Shown here one piece after another: positions 6,431 through 64,000 of a DNA stretch of 64,000 bases; position 1 is the stretch's first letter; each line of letters opens with the position of its first letter. Both the position numbers and the translations under genes were made by a program. The DNA is from Pseudomonadota bacterium (GTDB lineage: Bacteria; Pseudomonadota; Gammaproteobacteria; Steroidobacterales; Steroidobacteraceae), in NCBI GenBank assembly GCA_021807675.1, contig JAKBCR010000002.1:22803-86802 (forward strand), written 5' to 3'. The notes under the pieces were generated by a model that made no database searches, had not been told where the DNA came from, and saw only the letters and a list, made by a program, of their open reading frames with translations.

Positions 6431-7834
6431 ATCCTCGGCGTTTGCGGGACTTTCATGGGCGGCATCGCCGCCGTCGCGCGCGCCGCCGGCCACCGCGTGA
6501 CCGGGTCCGATGGCAACGTCTACCCGCCGATGAGCACGCAGCTCGAGGCGCTCGGGATAGAGCTCATCGAAGGCTATGACGCCGCACAGCTCGATCCTGC
6601 GCCGGACGTCGTCGTCGTCGGCAATGTCATGAGGCGCGGCCAATCCGTCGTCGAGGCGCTGCTGGACCGCGGGATTCCTTATGCATCGGGTCCGGAGTGG
6701 CTCGCGCGCGAGGTATTGCGGGACCGCTGGGTGCTCGCGGTGGCGGGTACACACGGCAAGACCACCACTTCGTCGGTTCTCGCCTGGATCCTCGAGCATG
6801 CCGGACTCGATCCCGGGTTCCTGATCGGCGGCGTGCCCGCAAACTTCGAGACGAGCGCCCGGCTCGGGGGGGCGTCCTTTTTCGTCATCGAGGCGGACGA
6901 GTACGACACGGCTTTCTTCGACAAGCGGGCGAAGTTCGTCCATTACCGCCCGCGCACGCTGATCCTGAACAACCTCGAGTACGACCACGCGGACATCTAT
7001 CCCGACGTCGCTGCGATCGAGCGCCAGTTCCATCATCTGGTGCGAACAGTCCCTGGGGGCGGCCGTATCCTCTGGAATGCGGGGGATGCGCATCTGAAGG
7101 AGACGCTCGCAATGGGATGCTGGACGCCGCTGGAGGGATTCGCCGGCCATCCCGTTGCGGAGGCGCACTGGACGGGACGTCCGACGGGTGGTGTCGAGGA
7201 TTTCTCCCGCTTCGATGTTCTCGAGCTTGGCCGCCCGCGGGGTACGGTGCAATGGGGACTCATCGGCGCGCACAACATGGAGAACGCGCTAGCGGCCATC
7301 GCGGCCGCGAGCCACGCCGGGGTGACCGTCGAGCGCTCGATCGAGGCTTTGCATTCGTTCGCGGGCGTTGCACGGCGCATGCAGCTTCGTGGCGAGATCA
7401 ATGGCGTGCGCGTGTACGATGACTTCGCCCATCATCCGACGGCGATTGCAACTACCCTCGACGGGCTGCGGCGGCGTGTCGGATCGGCGCGGATCATCGC
7501 CGTCCTGGAGCCCCGCTCCAATACCATGCGCATGGGCGTTCATCGCGACTCCCTCGCAGGCTCTCTGGCCGGGGCGGACGAAGTCTGGCTGTATACGCCC
7601 GCCGACCTGGGCTGGGACCCGGGCGGAGTGGTTGCCGGGCTTGGCGGACGAGGCCACGGACGCGGTGACGTCGCGGTGCTTGCGAGGGACCTCGCGCGGA
7701 CTCTACGGCCGGGGGACCACGTGCTCATCATGAGCAACGGCGGCTTTGGCGGCCTGCACGAGAAGCTGCTGTCGGAGCTCCGAGCGCATCACGAAATGTC
7801 TCTTGGCCAGGACGACGTGAATTCATTGCGCTGA
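6419..7834 (+). CDS. mpl: UDP-N-acetylmuramate:L-alanyl-gamma-D-glutamyl-meso-diaminopimelate ligase
   Basis: MHVHILGVCGTFMGGIAAVARAAGHRVTGSD...[20 protein letters not shown]...YDDFAHHPTAI. Confidence 0.95.
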   Translation: MHVHILGVCGTFMGGIAAVARAAGHRVTGSDGNVYPPMSTQLEALGIELIEGYDAAQLDPAPDVVVVGNVMRRGQSVVEALLDRGIPYASGPEWLAREVLRDRWVLAVAGTHGKTTTSSVLAWILEHAGLDPGFLIGGVPANFETSARLGGASFFVIEADEYDTAFFDKRAKFVHYRPRTLILNNLEYDHADIYPDVAAIERQFHHLVRTVPGGGRILWNAGDAHLKETLAMGCWTPLEGFAGHPVAEAHWTGRPTGGVEDFSRFDVLELGRPRGTVQWGLIGAHNMENALAAIAAASHAGVTVERSIEALHSFAGVARRMQLRGEINGVRVYDDFAHHPTAIATTLDGLRRRVGSARIIAVLEPRSNTMRMGVHRDSLAGSLAGADEVWLYTPADLGWDPGGVVAGLGGRGHGRGDVAVLARDLARTLRPGDHVLIMSNGGFGGLHEKLLSELRAHHEMSLGQDDVNSLR

Positions 7835-7911
7835 GCAATCCATGCGCCGCGCAAGCCCAGGGTGCCCATCCCTGGGCGCCTGGCCAAGAGGCATTTTGCG
7901 CTGCGGTCTCC

Positions 7912-13149: not shown

Positions 13150-14250
13150 ATGGGCATGATGGCTGCCGTTGACGAAGCGCCGATCGGGCCGGACGGTCTC
13201 GCCGCGAAGCGGCCGCTCAATCCGGTCGTGATCCTGTTTGGCCGGGTCGGAGACATGATCATGCTCACGGCCGCGCTGAGCGTCCTGCATCGCCGCTACG
13301 GTGCGGCCTGTCAGGTGGTCGGCGCCGGGCCGTGGAACCGGGTCCTCTATCAGGGGCACCCCGACGTTGCGCGGTGCTGGACCTTGCCGCGACATGCGCC
13401 GTTCGCAACCACATTCGCGTGGCTGGGAGTCGCGCGCGCGCTGCGCCGCAGCGCGCCGGCGCCGATTTACGTCGCCGAGGCGATGCCTCGCCAGGTCTCC
13501 CGTATCGAGCGCTTGCTGGCGCTCAGCCGCATCGATGCCGCGCGCTGCGTGCTCGTGGATGAGCGGCCGCGCCAAGGCGAGCATTACATCGATGCACTGT
13601 TGCGGCTCTGCGAGCGCACGCCCGCAGCCGTCGCCGCAACGGACTACCCGTTGCCCCCCCGGGCGTGCGCGCCCCGGCTGGTGACGCTCGAGGCGGAGCG
13701 ATCGCAGTGCGATGCCCTGCTGCGGCAGCGGGGTTGGAGCGGACGCCCGCTCGTGCTCATCCAGCCGGGCACGGCGCGAACCATCAGCGCGCGCAGCCGC
13801 AAGCGCTGGCAGCGCGACAACGACCGGTCCTGGCCCGTCGCTCGCTGGCGCGGGCTGTTGCATGCCTTGCATGCCCGGCATCCGCGGGCAGTTCTGGTGC
13901 TGCGCGGCGCGGTCGGCGAGCTGCCGTATCTGCGCGAGCTGCACACTGCCATCGGTCTCGAGGGCCTGGAGGTCGTCGGGCTCGGTCTGCGTGCGAGTTT
14001 CGCCCTGATGGAAGTCGCCGAAAGCATGATCTCCATGGATACGGGCATGGCTCACGCCGCCGCGGCGCTTGGTCTGCCCGTGGTCGTGATCATGGGCTCC
14101 AATCCTCAGTCGCTCGTGTTGCCGCGCAGCCCCGGCGGCTCCCCGGTAATCGGCGTTGGCGGCCCGCCGCAGAGCGGCCGCGCCGACCAGATTCCGCTCG
14201 AAGCCGTGCTCGATGCCTGGTGCTCGCTGCCGGTGTCCCGTAACGAGTGA
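13150..14250 (+). CDS. Glycosyltransferase family 9 (heptosyltransferase-like), paralog 2
   Basis: VVILFGRVGDMIMLTAALSVLHRRYGAACQVVGAGPWNRVLYQGHPDVARCW...MISMDTGMAHAAAALGLPVVVIMGSN; collinear with 10760..11896. Confidence 0.85.
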   Translation: MGMMAAVDEAPIGPDGLAAKRPLNPVVILFGRVGDMIMLTAALSVLHRRYGAACQVVGAGPWNRVLYQGHPDVARCWTLPRHAPFATTFAWLGVARALRRSAPAPIYVAEAMPRQVSRIERLLALSRIDAARCVLVDERPRQGEHYIDALLRLCERTPAAVAATDYPLPPRACAPRLVTLEAERSQCDALLRQRGWSGRPLVLIQPGTARTISARSRKRWQRDNDRSWPVARWRGLLHALHARHPRAVLVLRGAVGELPYLRELHTAIGLEGLEVVGLGLRASFALMEVAESMISMDTGMAHAAAALGLPVVVIMGSNPQSLVLPRSPGGSPVIGVGGPPQSGRADQIPLEAVLDAWCSLPVSRNE

Positions 14251-14351
14251 TATCCGCGGGCCGGCCAGAGTCCCGCGCCTCCAGCATTGATCTTTATCCC
14301 CCCGATGGCTACCGTGGCCAGCTTGTCCGCGCAAGCAAGAAAGACCGACGA

Positions 14352-16358
14352 ATGAGTCGCCGAGAGCCGCTGGCCTTTGCATTGATCGCTTCTCTGGCCC
14401 TGTGGCAAGGAGCAGCCGCCCGTGGCGTCACCCCTTACCTGCCCCTGAACCTCGATCCCGACGTCGAGAGCGCGATCGAGCGGGTGCTGATCCTCGGGGA
14501 CGAGCCGGTCATGTCCCGCCCCATACCGGCGGCGCTCGTTCTCGAGGCCCTGCCCAAGGCCTGCAAGGTGGACCGGCCCCTGTGCGAGCTCGTTCGCCAT
14601 TATCTCGCCCGCTACATGCACGGCAGCGGCGTGGAATTCTTCAGCGCGTCGCTGGCGGATACGACGGGCGGGTCGAACATCACCCTGCCCAACCAGCATG
14701 GCATGAAGGCTCAAAGCCCCTACCAGATCTCGGGCGCGGCCTACATCCAACCTAACTCCTACATGCTGCTCAACGTCGGCGGCGAGGCCTACCAGGGTCG
14801 CGCCACTCCCACCGGTACGATGCTCAGCCTGGGATTCGATTGGGCGCAGCTCGATATCGGCTGGCGCGACCACTGGTGGTCGCCCATGACCGACAGCTCG
14901 ATGCTGATCAGCACCGAGGCGCCCACCATGCCCTCCATCACCCTCTCCAATTATCAGCCGCTCACCCGGCTGGGATTGCACTACGAGGTGTTCGTGGCGC
15001 GCATGTCGGAATCGAGCCGGATCCAGCTCACCACCGGTGGCCTCACTCGCGGCTATCCCAACATGGGCGGGACGATGGTGAGCATCGAGCCGGTGAGCGG
15101 GTGGTCGTTCTCGGCCCAGCGGGTGCTGATCTGGGGCGGCGGCGCGGCCGGCCCGGTCCCGATCAGCCAGGTCCTCAATGCGTTCTTCAACCCCGCCAAG
15201 GCCCAGTCCAGCGGCTTCGGCACAGGCATCCACGTCATCGGCAAGCAGGAAGCCTCGTTCACCAGCCGGTTCATCTTCCCGGGACCGCATCCGTTCTCGG
15301 TCTATTTCGAGTACGCCGGCAACGACACCAACGCCGGCAGGAACTACCTTTTCGGAAAGCCCGATATCTCCGCCGGCATCGAGTTCCCGCGTCTCGGGCC
15401 CTTTGATCTGACCTACGAGATCTCCTCGTGGGCGCCCACCTGGTACGTCCATGGCGCCTCGAGCGTGCAGACAGGCTATCTCGATGGCATCGTCAACTAC
15501 GGCGACAGCATCGGACACTGGTTCGGGGATCAGCGGGTGCTCGCCACCCCTAACTCGCTGGCGGACGCGGTCGGCGGCCAGAGCAACATGCTGCGGCTCG
15601 GCTGGACTCCGTCCTTCGGGGGCTACATGCAGCTGCAGCTGCGCGCTCTCGCCAACGAAGGACAGACCTTCTACGCGACCTTCCCGTACCGGAACGAGTA
15701 CCTGGGCTCGCTCAGCTATTCCTATCCCTGGCACGGCTACGCCATCGGCGCGGAGCTCGATGCCGGGCGGGATGTCTTCGGCAACCACTATGTCAGGATC
15801 GAGGGGTATTTCCGCGACGGCGATGCGCTCTTCAGCCACGGCGACACGGCTTCCGCGTTCACCGGAGCCCGCCCGAAGGGGGACGAGGTCTACGTCGAGA
15901 CCGGTGTCAACTACTACCGCGTTCAGGACAGCCCGCTGAGCACCATCCGCGTTTACACTCCGTGGACGGTAGGGCCGCACTTCGCAATCGGGGCATGGCG
16001 GCGCGTCTCGCTGCACCAGGATCTGGGAGTGGCGCTGGATGCAGACGAGATACAGGGGCGGGCGCTGCTTGGCGTACACATGATCAATTATCGCTACCGC
16101 TTCGGCCGACACCTGGCTCTGCTCGCCATGGCCGGCGCGGTGCGCTATTCGCTGGCGACACCGGCGTACGGCCTGTACCTCGGCGGTGGCTTCCAGTGGC
16201 GCAATATCCTGCCCGGCTGGGACGTCGGCCTCGAGTACCACCGCGTGATCAATGCGCAGCGCATGCGGGACCTGCCGACCGATCCGCAGGGCGGCACGCG
16301 CCCCGACTCCTTCCACAATATCTATTCCTGGGGCTTGTACCTGTCGCGTAATTTCTAG
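14352..16358 (+). CDS. Capsule assembly Wzi-like outer-membrane protein
   Basis: Signal-peptide-like N-terminus, YLPLNLDPDVESAIERVLILGDEPVMSRPI, long beta-rich aromatic-alternating sequence ending in YSWGLYLSRNF. Confidence 0.75.
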   Translation: MSRREPLAFALIASLALWQGAAARGVTPYLPLNLDPDVESAIERVLILGDEPVMSRPIPAALVLEALPKACKVDRPLCELVRHYLARYMHGSGVEFFSASLADTTGGSNITLPNQHGMKAQSPYQISGAAYIQPNSYMLLNVGGEAYQGRATPTGTMLSLGFDWAQLDIGWRDHWWSPMTDSSMLISTEAPTMPSITLSNYQPLTRLGLHYEVFVARMSESSRIQLTTGGLTRGYPNMGGTMVSIEPVSGWSFSAQRVLIWGGGAAGPVPISQVLNAFFNPAKAQSSGFGTGIHVIGKQEASFTSRFIFPGPHPFSVYFEYAGNDTNAGRNYLFGKPDISAGIEFPRLGPFDLTYEISSWAPTWYVHGASSVQTGYLDGIVNYGDSIGHWFGDQRVLATPNSLADAVGGQSNMLRLGWTPSFGGYMQLQLRALANEGQTFYATFPYRNEYLGSLSYSYPWHGYAIGAELDAGRDVFGNHYVRIEGYFRDGDALFSHGDTASAFTGARPKGDEVYVETGVNYYRVQDSPLSTIRVYTPWTVGPHFAIGAWRRVSLHQDLGVALDADEIQGRALLGVHMINYRYRFGRHLALLAMAGAVRYSLATPAYGLYLGGGFQWRNILPGWDVGLEYHRVINAQRMRDLPTDPQGGTRPDSFHNIYSWGLYLSRNF

Positions 16359-16359
16359 T

Positions 16360-16510
16360 ATGAAGCGCTGGATCCGGCCCTCCTGGCCGGCCCAGCGCGC
16401 CTCGAGCAAAAAGCGCGGTTTTTTGCTCGAGGCTCGCTCGGCGGAGCGAAGCAGTGCTTCGCTGAAAGCACCGCCTCGCCCTGCGGCGGCGGGGCACCTC
16501 CCTGTGCCTG
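16360..16510 (+). repeat. R1 structured repeat, copy 1
   Basis: GCGCTGGATCCGGCCCTCCTGGCCGGCCCAGCGC hairpin + GCCTCGAGCAAAAAGCGCGGTTTTTTGCTCGAGGC hairpin (16399-16433) + AGCGAAGCAGTGCTTCGCT + GGCACCTCCCTGTGCC; begins 2 bp after the stop of the Wzi-like gene. Confidence 0.88.
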
Positions 16511-16529
16511 GGTGCCTACCGATGGCGAC

Positions 16530-17312
16530 TCACGCGGCCGATGCGGTTCCGAGGCCCACGTTGCCGTCCAACCAGACCACTTCGGTGGCGATAGAGCCGT
16601 CGGGTCTCAGCTCGAGTGTCCGGTAGGCAGGCGGCCGTGGGTCGAGCGCGAACTGCTCCGAGTGGGGGAGGAACTGTGCGCAGGTGGACGGGGTTGCGAG
16701 CAGCCGCACGCCCTTGCGGAGCGCGTCGTAGCTCTGGTGGACATGGCCCCAGACGATTCCGCGAACGCTGGGATGCCGGTCGATGATGTCGAAAAATTCC
16801 TCGGCATTCTGCAAACCGACTTGGTCAAGCCAACGGCTGCCGAGTGGCACCGGGTGATGGTGCAGACAAACGAGCGCATGGCGCTGCGGCGCGCCGGCAA
16901 GGGCCGCCTGCAGACCCGCCAGGGACTGCGTGCTGAGGCGTCCGGCAGCCGATCCCGGAATGGTGCTGTCGAGCAGCACGATGCGCCAGAGCCCGAGATC
17001 GGTCGCTCCGCCGATGATGAAGGGCTCGCGGTCGAGCGCGCGACGCATTGCCTCCGGGTCATCGTGATTGCCGGGCAGGCAGAGCACCGGCAACCGCAGC
17101 GACCCGAGCAGACGCCCGAAATGCGAGTATCCCGCGGGGTCGTCCTGCACGATATCGCCCGTGACCAGCACGGCATCCGGCGGCCAGTCGCGCCTACGCG
17201 CATGAGAGAGGGCTGCCTGAAGCGACGGCAGGGTCTTAATGCCGCGCAGTAGCTCGTGCTCGGTGCCGTAGAGATGCGGGTCCGTGAGATGAGTCAGGCG
17301 CACTACGCTCAT
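16530..17312 (-). CDS. Metallophosphoesterase, CpdA-like 3',5'-cyclic-nucleotide phosphodiesterase
   Basis: MSVVRLTHLTDPHLYG...VLVTGDIVQDDPAGYSHFGRLL...LPGNHDD...VCLHHHPVPLGSRWLD...GHVHQSYD. Confidence 0.85.
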   Translation of the reverse strand: MSVVRLTHLTDPHLYGTEHELLRGIKTLPSLQAALSHARRRDWPPDAVLVTGDIVQDDPAGYSHFGRLLGSLRLPVLCLPGNHDDPEAMRRALDREPFIIGGATDLGLWRIVLLDSTIPGSAAGRLSTQSLAGLQAALAGAPQRHALVCLHHHPVPLGSRWLDQVGLQNAEEFFDIIDRHPSVRGIVWGHVHQSYDALRKGVRLLATPSTCAQFLPHSEQFALDPRPPAYRTLELRPDGSIATEVVWLDGNVGLGTASAA

Positions 17313-24333: not shown

Positions 24334-25782
24334 TTACATCTGACCCAGACTCGCGCGCCGTCGCTCGTTGGAGGGGGCGATACCCATCGCCTCGCGGTAT
24401 TTCGCGACTGTGCGGCGTGCGACCGGGATGCCTTCCGCCGAAAGGAGCTCGGCGATGCGGCCGTCACTCAACGGCGATTCCGCATCCTCGTCCTTGACGA
24501 GCTTCTTGATCTTGGCGCGGATGGCGGTCGAGGAGGTGCCCGATCCGTCCGCGCCCTCGACGTGGCTCGAGAAGAAATAGCGCAGCTCGAACACGCCGCG
24601 CGGGGTATGCATGTACTTGCCGGAGGTGACGCGGGAGATGGTCGACTCGTGCATGCCGATCGCCTCGGCGATGTCCTTGAGAATCATCGGCCGCATGTGC
24701 TCCTCGCCGTGCTCGAGGAAGGCCGTCTGACGCTCGACGATCGAGCGGGCGACCTTGATCAGCGTCTCGTGACGGATCTCCAGGCTCTTCAGCAGCCAGC
24801 GCGCTTCCTGCAGCTGGGCGCGCATGGTGGCGTGACTGGCGTTTCGGCCGATGAGGCTCGCATAGCTCTGATTGAGGCGCACCCGCGGCAGCGTGGCCGA
24901 GTTGATTTCCACCGCCCACCCGTGCTCGGTCCGTCGGACGAACACATCGGGCACAACGTACTCGGCCGAACCGGCGCTCACCGTGGCACCCGGGCGCGGA
25001 TGGCAGGAGCGCACCAAGGCCAGAGCGCAGGCGAGGTCCTCGTCGCTGACCCGCAGCTCCCGCTTGACGACCGCGAGCTCCCTCCCGGCGATACGCTCGA
25101 GGTGATGCCGGGCGATCTCGATCGCGGCCTCGAAACCCGGGGTCGCGGGGTCGAGCTGACGCAGCTGCAGCTCGATGCACTCACCCACAGAGCGCGCGCC
25201 CACCCCGGGAGGGTCCAAGGCCTGAACATCGGCGAGCGCAGCCTCGACCTCGGCGGCGTCGCAGAGGATCTCGGGCCTAAGGGTGTTCGCGATCTCCTCC
25301 AGCGGCTCCGTCAGGTAGCCATCGTCGCTGATCGCGTCGACGATGGCCCGTGCGATCGCGAGCTCTCGCGCCTCGAGCCTGGCGAGCTCGAGCTGGGAGA
25401 GAAGGTATTCCTGCAGGGATTGACCCGTCGAGTCGGCGAATTCCTGCTGCCGGTCGTCGTCGTCCCCGCTCCAGGGGGCCTCCGCCGGGCCGACGCTGTG
25501 CTCACCCCAGCCCTCGTCGACCACCTCGACGGCGCTCTCGCGCGGGCCCTCCTCCGGCGCCTCGGTCGGCTCTGGCGCTGCCGCATGCTCGAGCGCACCG
25601 GTATCGAAGCCTTCCTCAGGGCCATCGTCCACCGGCTCGAGCATCACATTGGATTCGAGAAGCTCTCGGATGTGCGCCTGCAGCTCAAGGGCGGGCAGCT
25701 GCAGGAGCCGGATCGCCTGCTGCAGCTGCGGGGTCATCGTCAGTTGCTGACCCAGCTTGAGCTGCAGGGAGGGTTTCAGCAT
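24334..25782 (-). CDS. rpoN: RNA polymerase sigma-54 factor
   Basis: LKLGQQLTMTPQLQQAIRLLQLPALELQ...DIAEAIGMHESTISRVTSGKYMHTPRGVFELRYFFSS...ARRTVAKYREAMGIAPSNERR (RpoN box). Confidence 0.96.
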   Translation of the reverse strand: MLKPSLQLKLGQQLTMTPQLQQAIRLLQLPALELQAHIRELLESNVMLEPVDDGPEEGFDTGALEHAAAPEPTEAPEEGPRESAVEVVDEGWGEHSVGPAEAPWSGDDDDRQQEFADSTGQSLQEYLLSQLELARLEARELAIARAIVDAISDDGYLTEPLEEIANTLRPEILCDAAEVEAALADVQALDPPGVGARSVGECIELQLRQLDPATPGFEAAIEIARHHLERIAGRELAVVKRELRVSDEDLACALALVRSCHPRPGATVSAGSAEYVVPDVFVRRTEHGWAVEINSATLPRVRLNQSYASLIGRNASHATMRAQLQEARWLLKSLEIRHETLIKVARSIVERQTAFLEHGEEHMRPMILKDIAEAIGMHESTISRVTSGKYMHTPRGVFELRYFFSSHVEGADGSGTSSTAIRAKIKKLVKDEDAESPLSDGRIAELLSAEGIPVARRTVAKYREAMGIAPSNERRRASLGQM

Positions 25783-25870
25783 GCGGGCACGAGCGGGGCG
25801 CTAAGCCTTTCCAAATATAAGTCTCTGATATTGCATACATTTATCAACCATCGTTCCGCGACCCCAAGGC

Positions 25871-25985
25871 ATGAAGCCAGGCGCGAGGAGGTGCCCCCCG
25901 CCGCAGGCGGCGAGCGGTGAGCAACGTCGCGCCTTTTGCTCGCACGCCGGGCCGGGCGGGATGTGCCCGGATCCAGCGGTGCATG
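25871..25985 (-). repeat. R1 structured repeat, copy 2
   Basis: Reverse complement: GCACCGCTGGATCCGGGCACATCCCGCCCGGCCCGGCGTGCGAGCAAAAGGCGCGACGTTGCTCACCGC...CGGGGGGCACCTCCTCGCGCCTGG; abuts the lptB stop. Confidence 0.75.
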
Positions 25986-26711
25986 CTAAAGCCGGAACGA
26001 CTCGCCCAAGTACACCTCACGCACTTGGGGGTTGGCAAGGATTTCTTCCGCAGTTCCTTGAGCGATTACCGCTCCCTGGTTGACGATATATGCCCGGCCG
26101 CAGACCCCCAGGGTCTCGCGTACATTGTGGTCAGTGATCAGCACCCCAATGCCGCGGCTCGTCAGCTCGCGGATGATGCGCTGAATATCGAGCACCGAGA
26201 GCGGATCGACGCCCGCGAACGGCTCATCGAGGAGCATGAAGCGGGGCTCGGCCGCGAGTGCCCGCGCGATTTCGACGCGCCGCCGCTCCCCGCCCGAGAG
26301 TGACAGCCCGAGGCTGCGGCGCACGTGTCCGATGCGCAGCTCCTCGAGGAGCTCCTCGAGCCGCTGCTCGCGTGCGGCGCGCTCGAGATCGCGCCGCGTC
26401 TCGAGGATGGCGAGCACATTGTTCTCGACCGACAGCTTGCGGAAGACGGAAGCCTCCTGGGGCAAGTACCCCAGTCCGAGCTGCGCACGGCGGTGCATCG
26501 GCAGCAGCGTAAGGTCCGTGTCGCCGAGATGGATGCTGCCGGCGTCGCAGGGTACGAGGCCGACCATCATGTAGAAGGCCGTGGTCTTGCCGGCTCCGTT
26601 GGGACCGAGGAGGCCCACCACCTCGCCGTTCGAGACCTCGAGACTGATGTTGTGGACGACTTTGCGGGATTTGTAGCTTTTCTCGAGCCCGCTCGCGCGC
26701 AGGGTCGTCAT
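25986..26711 (-). CDS. lptB: LPS export ABC transporter ATP-binding protein
   Basis: [20 protein letters not shown]...[19 protein letters not shown]...[16 protein letters not shown]...[14 protein letters not shown]. Confidence 0.96.
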
Positions 26712-29859: not shown

Positions 29860-31357
<1,498 letters not shown>

Positions 31358-31358
31358 A

Positions 31359-31450
31359 CATCGACCGGCGGCTGACCGCCGAACCATCAAGCGGTACGAC
31401 ACGGCAGCCGGGCACAGGGAGGCGCGCGTGGATTGCGCAGGAGCCCGGAT
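31359..31450 (-). repeat. R1 remnant, internally deleted, in imperfect tandem with R1 copy 3
   Basis: CATCGACCGGCGGCTGACCGCCGAACCATCAAGCGGTACGACACGGCAGCCGGGCACAGGGAGG is repeated as CATCGACCAGCGGTCGACCCCGAAACCATGAAGCGGTGCGCAGGCATGACCCAGGCACAGGGAGG at 31466-31530; ends CCCGGATCCA as in R1. Confidence 0.6.
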
Positions 31451-31514
31451 CCATCTTAGCTCCCCATCGACCAGCGGTCGACCCCGAAACCATGAAGCGG
31501 TGCGCAGGCATGAC

Positions 31515-31767
31515 CCAGGCACAGGGAGGTGCCCGGCCGCCGCAGGGCGAGGCGGTGCTTTCAGCGAAGCACTGCTTCGCTCCGCCGAGCGAGCCTCGGG
31601 CAAAAAACCGCGCTTTTTGCTCGAGGCGCGCTGGGCCGGCCAGGGTGCGACGCATGCGTCGCACGGGTGGCCATGGAGGGACACCCCGGGCAGGCCCGGT
31701 TGGACCCGGGACGTGCGCGGAGCAGGGACCGCGCAGCGCAATGGCCGGATCCAGCGCTTCATAATTC
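31515..31767 (-). repeat. R1 structured repeat, copy 3 (expanded by ~95 bp in first hairpin loop)
   Basis: Reverse complement starts ATGAAGCGCTGGATCCGGCC and ends GGGCACCTCCCTGTGCCTGGGTCATGCC; contains GCCTCGAGCAAAAAGCGCGGTTTTTTGCCCGAGGC (31593-31627). Confidence 0.85.
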
Positions 31768-39830: not shown

Positions 39831-39946
39831 GTGCGAAAGCAAGTGAATGAGCGGCCCCCGGGCCGCTCCCGGGGACGCGGGATGAAAGGCGGTCATAGGG
39901 CCGCGCTCGCCCAAAGCGGCGAAGCCGACTTTGGGCCAATAAACGA
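39831..39946 (+). repeat. R2 structured intergenic repeat, copy C
   Basis: GTGCGAAAGCAAGTGAATGAGCGGCCCCCGGGCCGCTCCCGGGGACGCGG...GCCCAAAGCGGCGAAGCCGACTTTGGGCCAATAAACGAGG. Confidence 0.82.
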
Positions 39947-40363
39947 GGAGAGCCGGCCTGTAAGCCGGGTTCTGTCGAGGGCAATCATTCCTCTGCGATC
40001 CACGTCGCCGTGGACCTCTAGCGGCCTACCCGGAAGCGCGCGCGGATCGGCGCTGCACACTCTGTTGCCAGAGCCCGCTGCTTCCCTATTTGGCCTTGCT
40101 CCAGGTGGGGTTTGCCGTGCCAGCCTTGTTACCAAGGCCGCGGTGCGCTCTTACCGCACCGTTTCACCCTTGCCGTCCCTCGCGGCAGCGTGCGCTGCAC
40201 TGCAGCACAAGCGTTCACCACGAGAGCTTAGGCGGTTTGCTCTCTGTTGCACTTTCCGTGGGCTCGCGCCCCCCAGGCGTTACCTGGCACCTGATCCGCC
40301 GGAGCCCGGACTTTCCTCCCCCCCGACCGAAGTCGGAGCAGCGATTGCCCGGCCGGCTCTCCT
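39947..40363 (-). ncRNA. rnpB: RNase P RNA, bacterial type A
   Basis: Minus strand GGAGAGCCGGCC...GGGGGGAGGAAAGTCCGGGCTCC...CAGGTGCCAGGTAACGCCTGGGGGGC...GAAAGTGCAACAGAGAGCAAACCGCC...CGACAGAACCCGGCTTACAGGCCGGCTCTCC; ends estimated from P1 pairing. Confidence 0.95.
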
Positions 40364-63821: not shown

Positions 63822-63876
63822 GTGCGGCGACGCATACCCCGCACCGGGGCCGACATCGGTCGATGGGAAACTACTA

Positions 63877-63991
63877 AGAAACGCTGGATCGGGGCATCCT
63901 GCCCCGCCCAGCGTGCCTGGGGCAAAAAGCGCGGTTTTTTGCCCCAGGCTCCGCCACCTGCGGCGGCGGGGCACAGTCCCTGTGCCTGGGC
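63877..63991 (+). repeat. R1 structured repeat, copy 4 (may continue past the window edge)
   Basis: ACGCTGGATCGGGGCATCCTGCCCCGCCCAGCGT + GCCTGGGGCAAAAAGCGCGGTTTTTTGCCCCAGGC (63915-63949) + GGCACAGTCCCTGTGCC. Confidence 0.88.
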
Positions 63992-64000
63992 ACCGGCTCG

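Follow-up and report, generated by a model that had tools for sequence, protein, structure and literature searches.

The window, meaning the whole 64,000-nt stretch of DNA analyzed here, comes from a Steroidobacteraceae-type metagenome-assembled genome (MAG) of 5.1 Mb in 430 contigs and carries a hairpin-rich repeat in four intergenic places. A sequence-only reading had proposed these four copies as one repeat, and the sequences found at all four places, on the strands given, bear it out. A covariance model based on 36 cores matched the window with E ≤ 2.9e-5 at exactly 16363-16508 (+), 63879-63986 (+), 31518-31655 (−) and 25880-25981 (−), the remaining matches being reverse strands of the four copies or having E ≥ 0.29. 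The central core sequence GCAAAAAGCGCGGTTTTTTGC occurs three times in the window, compared with 0.00 expected from shuffles.

Copy 1 opens with the left end motif CTAGTAT (16355-16361, +), whose TAG at 16356-16358 is the stop codon of an upstream Wzi-like gene (14247-16358). The motif is followed on the same strand by a GAAG tag and hairpin H1 (16362-16398; GCGCTGG-AT-CCGGCC / GGCCGG-C-CCAGCGC), which has a conserved AT/C internal bulge, and by hairpin H2 (16399-16433), in which a 9-bp covarying outer stem encloses a near-invariant A5-GCGCGG-T6 center. A long-form H3 module (16434-16492) with about 44 nt of additional GCTCGGCGGAGCGAAGCAGTGCTTCGC hairpin leads into H4 (16493-16508; GGCAC/GTGCC), and the right-end remnant CGATGGCGA-CTCA (16520-16532) abuts the stop codon (16530-16532) of a convergent phosphoesterase gene (16530-17303). 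None of the relatives examined carries an element at this site, and neither promoter nor terminator signatures were found in copy 1.

The degenerate copy 2 (25844-25987, −) lies directly 3′ of the TAG stop (25986-25988) of an LptB-like ABC ATPase gene (25986-26711) and precedes rpoN (24334-25782). These two genes, which are often neighbors, are thus kept apart by the repeat within 24334-26711. Copy 3 (31450-31766, −), with one A·C mismatch in its second hairpin, is a full element including the right-end hairpin, and its H1 loop holds an M module of about 95 nt (31646-31740, −) at the site AT^CCT. It is in tandem with a second, truncated copy (31352-31445, −) that ends at the 3′ end of murA (30098-31357). 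Copy 4 follows in tandem on the right-end remnant CATCGGTCGATGGGAAA of a preceding copy (63848-63870, +), starts with the left end motif CTACTAA (63871-63877, +), and continues as a member of the CTAC subfamily (63878-63991, +) with H1 at 63881-63914, H2 at 63915-63949 and H3/H4 to about 63987; it is cut because window position 64000 is the end of its contig, C95. Elsewhere in the window, positions 7827-7881 (+) give a weak M-module match where no recognized element lies, and 39945-40360 (−) is a full-length covariance-model match to class A bacterial RNase P RNA (RF00010).

The boundaries first assigned to the copies proved too narrow. The full element begins at a CTA-N4 motif and includes, beyond the fourth hairpin, another hairpin at the right end followed by GGGNAA-CTAN4, which is why the end of copy 3 is placed near 31450; its true size, the right-end hairpin, the tandem arrays and the 7-nt CTA-N4 end motifs had all been missed. 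In the aligned copies, the order of a full unit is CTA-N4, GAAG, H1, H2, H3, H4, a CGCTTCAT arm complementary to ATGAAGCG of the left end, H5, GGGNAA and CTA-N4. The H1 consensus is GCGCTGG-AT-CCGGSC...GSCCGG-C-CCAGCGC, H2 has its 9-bp variable outer stem around A5-GCGCGG-T6, the H4 stem is GGCAC/GTGCC, and H5, the right-end hairpin, is TCGAC/GTCGA with the variants TGGAC/GTCCA and TCGGC/GCCGA. A short form of about 172 bp and a long form of 216 bp differ by the roughly 44 additional nucleotides in H3. A loop module can add up to 100 bp: the M module, about 75-95 nt long, sits in the H1 loop at AT^CCT or in the H4 loop and can be doubled. The possibility that it is an independent element was rejected, as it is present almost only within these repeats. 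Units in tandem meet at GGGNAA-CTAN4-GAAG, and arrays that lack the right end have a period of about 110 bp. The right end is absent from many copies, and H1 is broken in a minority (3′ arm GCGCGAACGAAGCGC), so copies can persist without H1 pairing. The element has no protein of its own. In the assembly from which the window comes (G000), the H3 module at C428:110400-110740 (L160) holds several further perfect hairpins of another type, e.g., GAATGAATCGC-ctgga-GCGATTCATG, and the copy at C428:93940 is bordered by a GCCCCGAAGGGGC hairpin. The stop-codon repeat seems to share its places with a second family of hairpin repeats.

With up to one mismatch allowed, the H2 core matched the window's genome 53 times on the forward and 62 times on the reverse strand, compared with 0 and 0 for a reversed control, giving at least 115 copies of the central hairpin. 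Many contigs break inside the repeat (C125, C140, C213, C216, C326 and C407, as well as the end of the window), and copy numbers from the assembly are therefore lower bounds. The fully read 124-kb contig C428 carries about one element per 15-18 kb, a density that, if typical, suggests about 300 copies and fragments in the genome. The named genomes in which the core occurs belong to Steroidobacteraceae or are MAGs of unclassified Proteobacteria/Gammaproteobacteria; one further match, at core level only, lies in a Treponema MAG contig. Among 36 sampled members of the genus, 16 showed the family, as against 0 of 23 genomes from other genera in the order; the covariance model placed it in 1 genus of 60. 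It is restricted to one genus. Searches of 50,697 phage and 72,556 plasmid records for a phage or plasmid origin gave 0 matches, no Rfam family matched above its gathering score, and the literature yielded nothing specific on this family or lineage. We regard it as close to certain that this is a dispersed, structured, genus-specific repeat family.

Information content falls to zero just beyond a 7-nt motif on both sides of the element. The left motif is (C)TANTAT, with CTAGTAT or CTACTAA as the best left ends, and the right motif is CTAN[TG][AG][AT]. The tag GAAG is present in most left ends, as seen in one set whose search pattern asked for GA-type tags and in another made without that restriction. 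Within copies, left and right 7-mers in a pair list compiled by hand agree at 106 of 189 positions, little more than the 97 of shuffled pairs, and the two motifs are therefore not a target duplication. Terminal inverted repeats were absent from three intact copies. Motif variants track the subfamily at right position 4 (C or G, p=0.001-0.002) and left position 7 (A, p=0.005), and the right end is CTACTGA in GCCTGGGGC/GCTTTGGGC copies. Because the variants go with the subfamily, the element most likely brings its right motif with it and finds the left one at the site of insertion. Some arrays, C61 (L041) and L241 among them, present another pattern: an unusual variant (CTAGTTT and CTGGTTT, respectively) is common to the left and internal motifs, and the rightmost motif differs. 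For these, a unit carrying the left motif, or unequal exchange, would fit better than insertion after an element-encoded right motif.

The left end lies within 8 nt of an upstream stop codon in 35 of 51 cases, most often at exactly +3 (16 cases). TAG is over-used at those stops (18/35 vs 60/265 elsewhere, p=7e-4), and right ends sometimes abut the stops of convergent genes. At copy 1, the G014 ortholog of the Wzi-like gene stops at the same codon (TTCTGA); at copy 2, the LptB-like protein upstream ends in VYLGESFRL, which we take to be the usual ending of LptB. On these grounds, the stops at both copies look native rather than supplied by the element. Since CTAG is depleted about elevenfold in the genome (108 observed vs 1163 expected) and occurs mostly at stops and between genes, copies targeted to it would end up beside stop codons that stay readable. 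The scarcity of CTAG, together with an element that has the motif on both sides, explains this placement.

The paired changes noted in the window copies are correct as read in the sequences: the H1 inner stem appears as CCGGCC/GGCCGG, CCGGGC/GCCCGG and CGGGGC/GCCCCG, the closing stem changes from GCGCTGG/CCAGCGC to ACGCTGG/CCAGCGT, and the second hairpin changes from GCCTCGAGC/GCTCGAGGC to GCCTGGGGC/GCCCCAGGC. The A5-GCGCGG-T6 core is likewise kept in general, but not in degenerate copy 2, which reads AAAAGGCGCGACGTT. Across the alignment of 36 cores (A1), the predicted pairs are formed in 97.8% of cells, compared with 37-48% when one side is slid by 1-3 columns; shuffles of A1 are on average 89.2% paired. 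Double changes affect 12 of the 37 pairs. Seven pairs, six in the H2 outer stem and one in H1, reached E<0.05 against a tree-based null in which the substitutions of each branch of a FastTree tree were redistributed over columns, a procedure that imitates R-scape and is not R-scape itself. No unpaired column pair exceeded the all-pairs threshold, neighboring stem columns also correlate, and RNAalifold independently returned nearly the same structure. Over all loci, H2 is represented by 149 distinct copies with 55 arm pairs, 18 of them perfect and different, and 13 of the 17 links joining these perfect stems are single base-pair replacements. Thus, the paired changes are not chance, and covariation of this significance means that pairing is maintained beyond simple copying. 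Recent copying is clearly ongoing as well, since unrelated sites hold copies of a subfamily with 96-100% identity; the element thus spreads while its structure is conserved. The nearest species are only 70-79% identical, with flanks too diverged for empty sites to be identified by synteny.

Palindrome correction by mutation could contribute to the paired changes. In its strongest form, this explanation involves no selection on structure at all: mutation itself, through quasi-palindrome correction and template switching in hairpins, would keep the palindromes perfect, and gene conversion or homologous recombination between repeats would spread the copies. In keeping with it, the H2 stem of A1 shows double changes but hardly any intermediates altered on one side, neighboring stem columns change as blocks, and the H1 bulge of one copy (C127:2614-2779) has been corrected to a perfect palindrome. 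However, all 36 cores otherwise retain the AT side of the H1 bulge, the H2 loop hardly varies, and precise placement at new CTA-N4 sites is beyond what gene conversion could achieve by itself, which together make this account improbable.

Whether the hairpins act as RNA or as DNA was approached through mismatches and orientation. On the element strand, H2 of all copies contains 6 G·T and 10 A·C mismatches (p=0.45), and all stems of A1 contain 11 and 8, respectively; copies between codirectional genes are sense in 23 cases and antisense in 17. With G·T and A·C equally frequent and orientation to transcription unbiased, nothing points to RNA. The mismatch symmetry fits a role at the DNA level, the counts being small and no proof against RNA. 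The initial description of a real, intergenic, dispersed repeat with covarying hairpins stands, and its pull towards RNA is not supported. An RNA element would be part of the 3′ UTR of upstream genes, its hairpins serving as mRNA stabilizers, processing sites or roadblocks and its covariation reflecting selection for RNA pairing. Copies directly 3′ of stop codons, strong covariation and very stable folds (z of about −6 to −9 with DNA parameters) would suit such an element, although both strands fold about equally well as DNA. We nevertheless consider it quite improbable, given that G·T is not favored over A·C on the element strand, that there is no orientation bias relative to transcription, that right ends abut the stops of convergent genes too, and that Rfam offers no match. 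The view that the repeat is not a standard Rho-independent terminator was upheld, since the T-run lies inside the stem and a terminator-like site was not found.

A search for a mobilizing enzyme found no Y1 transposase (PF01797) in the element-rich genomes G032 (97% complete), G200, G035 and G002, with control genomes including E. coli positive, and neither Y1 nor RAYT in G007 and G014. A Y1 transposase was rejected as the current partner, because Y1 genes are not distributed with the element across the genus. The only Y1 trace in the window's assembly is a decayed IS200-like TnpA gene (C373:9575-9936, L033), whose ends are unrelated to the element. A related autonomous copy with a Y1 transposase and the same ends was not found in these draft assemblies, which may miss it. 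IS91/ISCR Y2 transposases gave no match, yet the control genomes gave none either. Orphan right ends were also sought in G032, G200, G035 and G062 as a route to an autonomous copy. Most of the 30 right ends there directly follow an element body, only the distal part is present at three in G200 (L240, L242 and L249), and no carrier gene was identified.

IS630-type DDE_3 genes are present in 11 of the 12 genus members tested, including most of the element-rich ones, and IS630 prefers CTAG targets. Both points would accord with a MITE mobilized by a DDE transposase with CTAG or TA preference (IS630/Tc1-mariner type), cut and pasted as double-stranded DNA with its hairpins incidental. This is unlikely, however: the three intact copies lack terminal inverted repeats, left and right 7-mers differ within copies, and the right motif is subfamily-specific. 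DDE_3 genes are also present in element-free genomes and absent from element-bearing G002, and no element ends were found around the DDE_3 genes examined. IS630 DDE_3 was accordingly rejected as a partner, being widespread but unlinked.

Taken as a whole, the repeat is probably a previously undescribed, non-autonomous mobile DNA family in an uncultured gammaproteobacterial genome. In lacking terminal inverted repeats, and in having unequal motifs at their two ends, subterminal hairpins and tandem junctions, the copies examined look like elements moved as single strands. In H1, the GAAG tag adjoins the stem with its conserved bulge, and both junctions contain CT; the TnpA-REP of E. coli requires both its tag and a bulge and cuts at CT (PMC8266576). 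Our preferred reading, to which we assign a probability of roughly 0.55, is a hairpin-dependent, non-autonomous mobile DNA repeat that is targeted to CTA/CTAG sites and moves in a REP/IS200-type mode with single-strand recognition. Under this reading, the hairpins would act at the DNA level, where a trans-acting enzyme similar to TnpA-REP or the TnpA of IS200/IS605 would recognize folded single strands through the GAAG-tagged, bulged H1 and through H5. Copies would insert directly 3′ of a CTA-N4 motif and thereby acquire CTA-N4 on both sides, tandem arrays would arise when the right-end motif of one copy serves as the target for the next, and pairing would be kept because unpaired copies do not move. 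The mover may be lost, missing from the draft assemblies, or of another class.

That last option can be stated as a separate, doubtful reading: the hairpin-dependent family would be driven by an enzyme that is neither Y1/RAYT nor a DDE transposase dependent on terminal inverted repeats, from a class so far without a known connection to repeats of this type. The family's CTA-N4 target, in effect stop codons, would be specified by the element, given that the motifs at both ends differ between subfamilies. Identification of the enzyme would extend the set of transposases known to mobilize short hairpin repeats, and the link between end motifs and subfamilies would make guide-sequence models of target choice directly testable. 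In addition, the H2 outer stem is a clean natural example of a stem that has taken at least 18 sequences without losing its pairing; nothing indicates RNA as the cause, and each genome provides many copies for comparison.

Among known systems, the repeat resembles REP/BIME/REPIN sequences in its intergenic location, high copy number, tetranucleotide tag beside a stem with a conserved bulge (in A1 cores the AT/C bulge of H1, a feature of E. coli-type REPs), CT junctions, arrays and position downstream of genes. It differs in its tag, GAAG rather than the GTAG or CGTC by which REPs are defined (PMC3733652), in its size of 110-300 bp with four to five hairpins rather than a single palindrome of 20-40 bp, and in the absence from its carriers of the RAYT (TnpA-REP) that accompanies REPs. 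With PATEs, non-autonomous members of IS200/IS605, it shares the lack of terminal inverted repeats, subterminal hairpins at both ends, the absence of a simple target duplication and a left flank that resembles the right end; an associated Y1 transposase is lacking here, and the CTA-N4 target and internal covarying hairpins set it apart. GC-rich hairpins 3′ of stop codons recall intrinsic terminators, whose T-run is not enclosed in the stem as it is here. MITEs such as ERIC, Correia/NEMIS and RUP are, like this repeat, short non-coding dispersed elements near gene ends, but the present family has neither terminal inverted repeats nor an exact target duplication; it is not an ordinary MITE, because its end motifs are not identical within a copy and it lacks those repeats. 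Streptococcal BOX elements, compared by description only, are modular hairpin repeats with an optional or repeated middle module, as here, whereas the present repeat is confined to one gammaproteobacterial genus. Overall, the repeat is of one kind with REP, BIME and MITE repeats, although each described family has testable defining features that it lacks.
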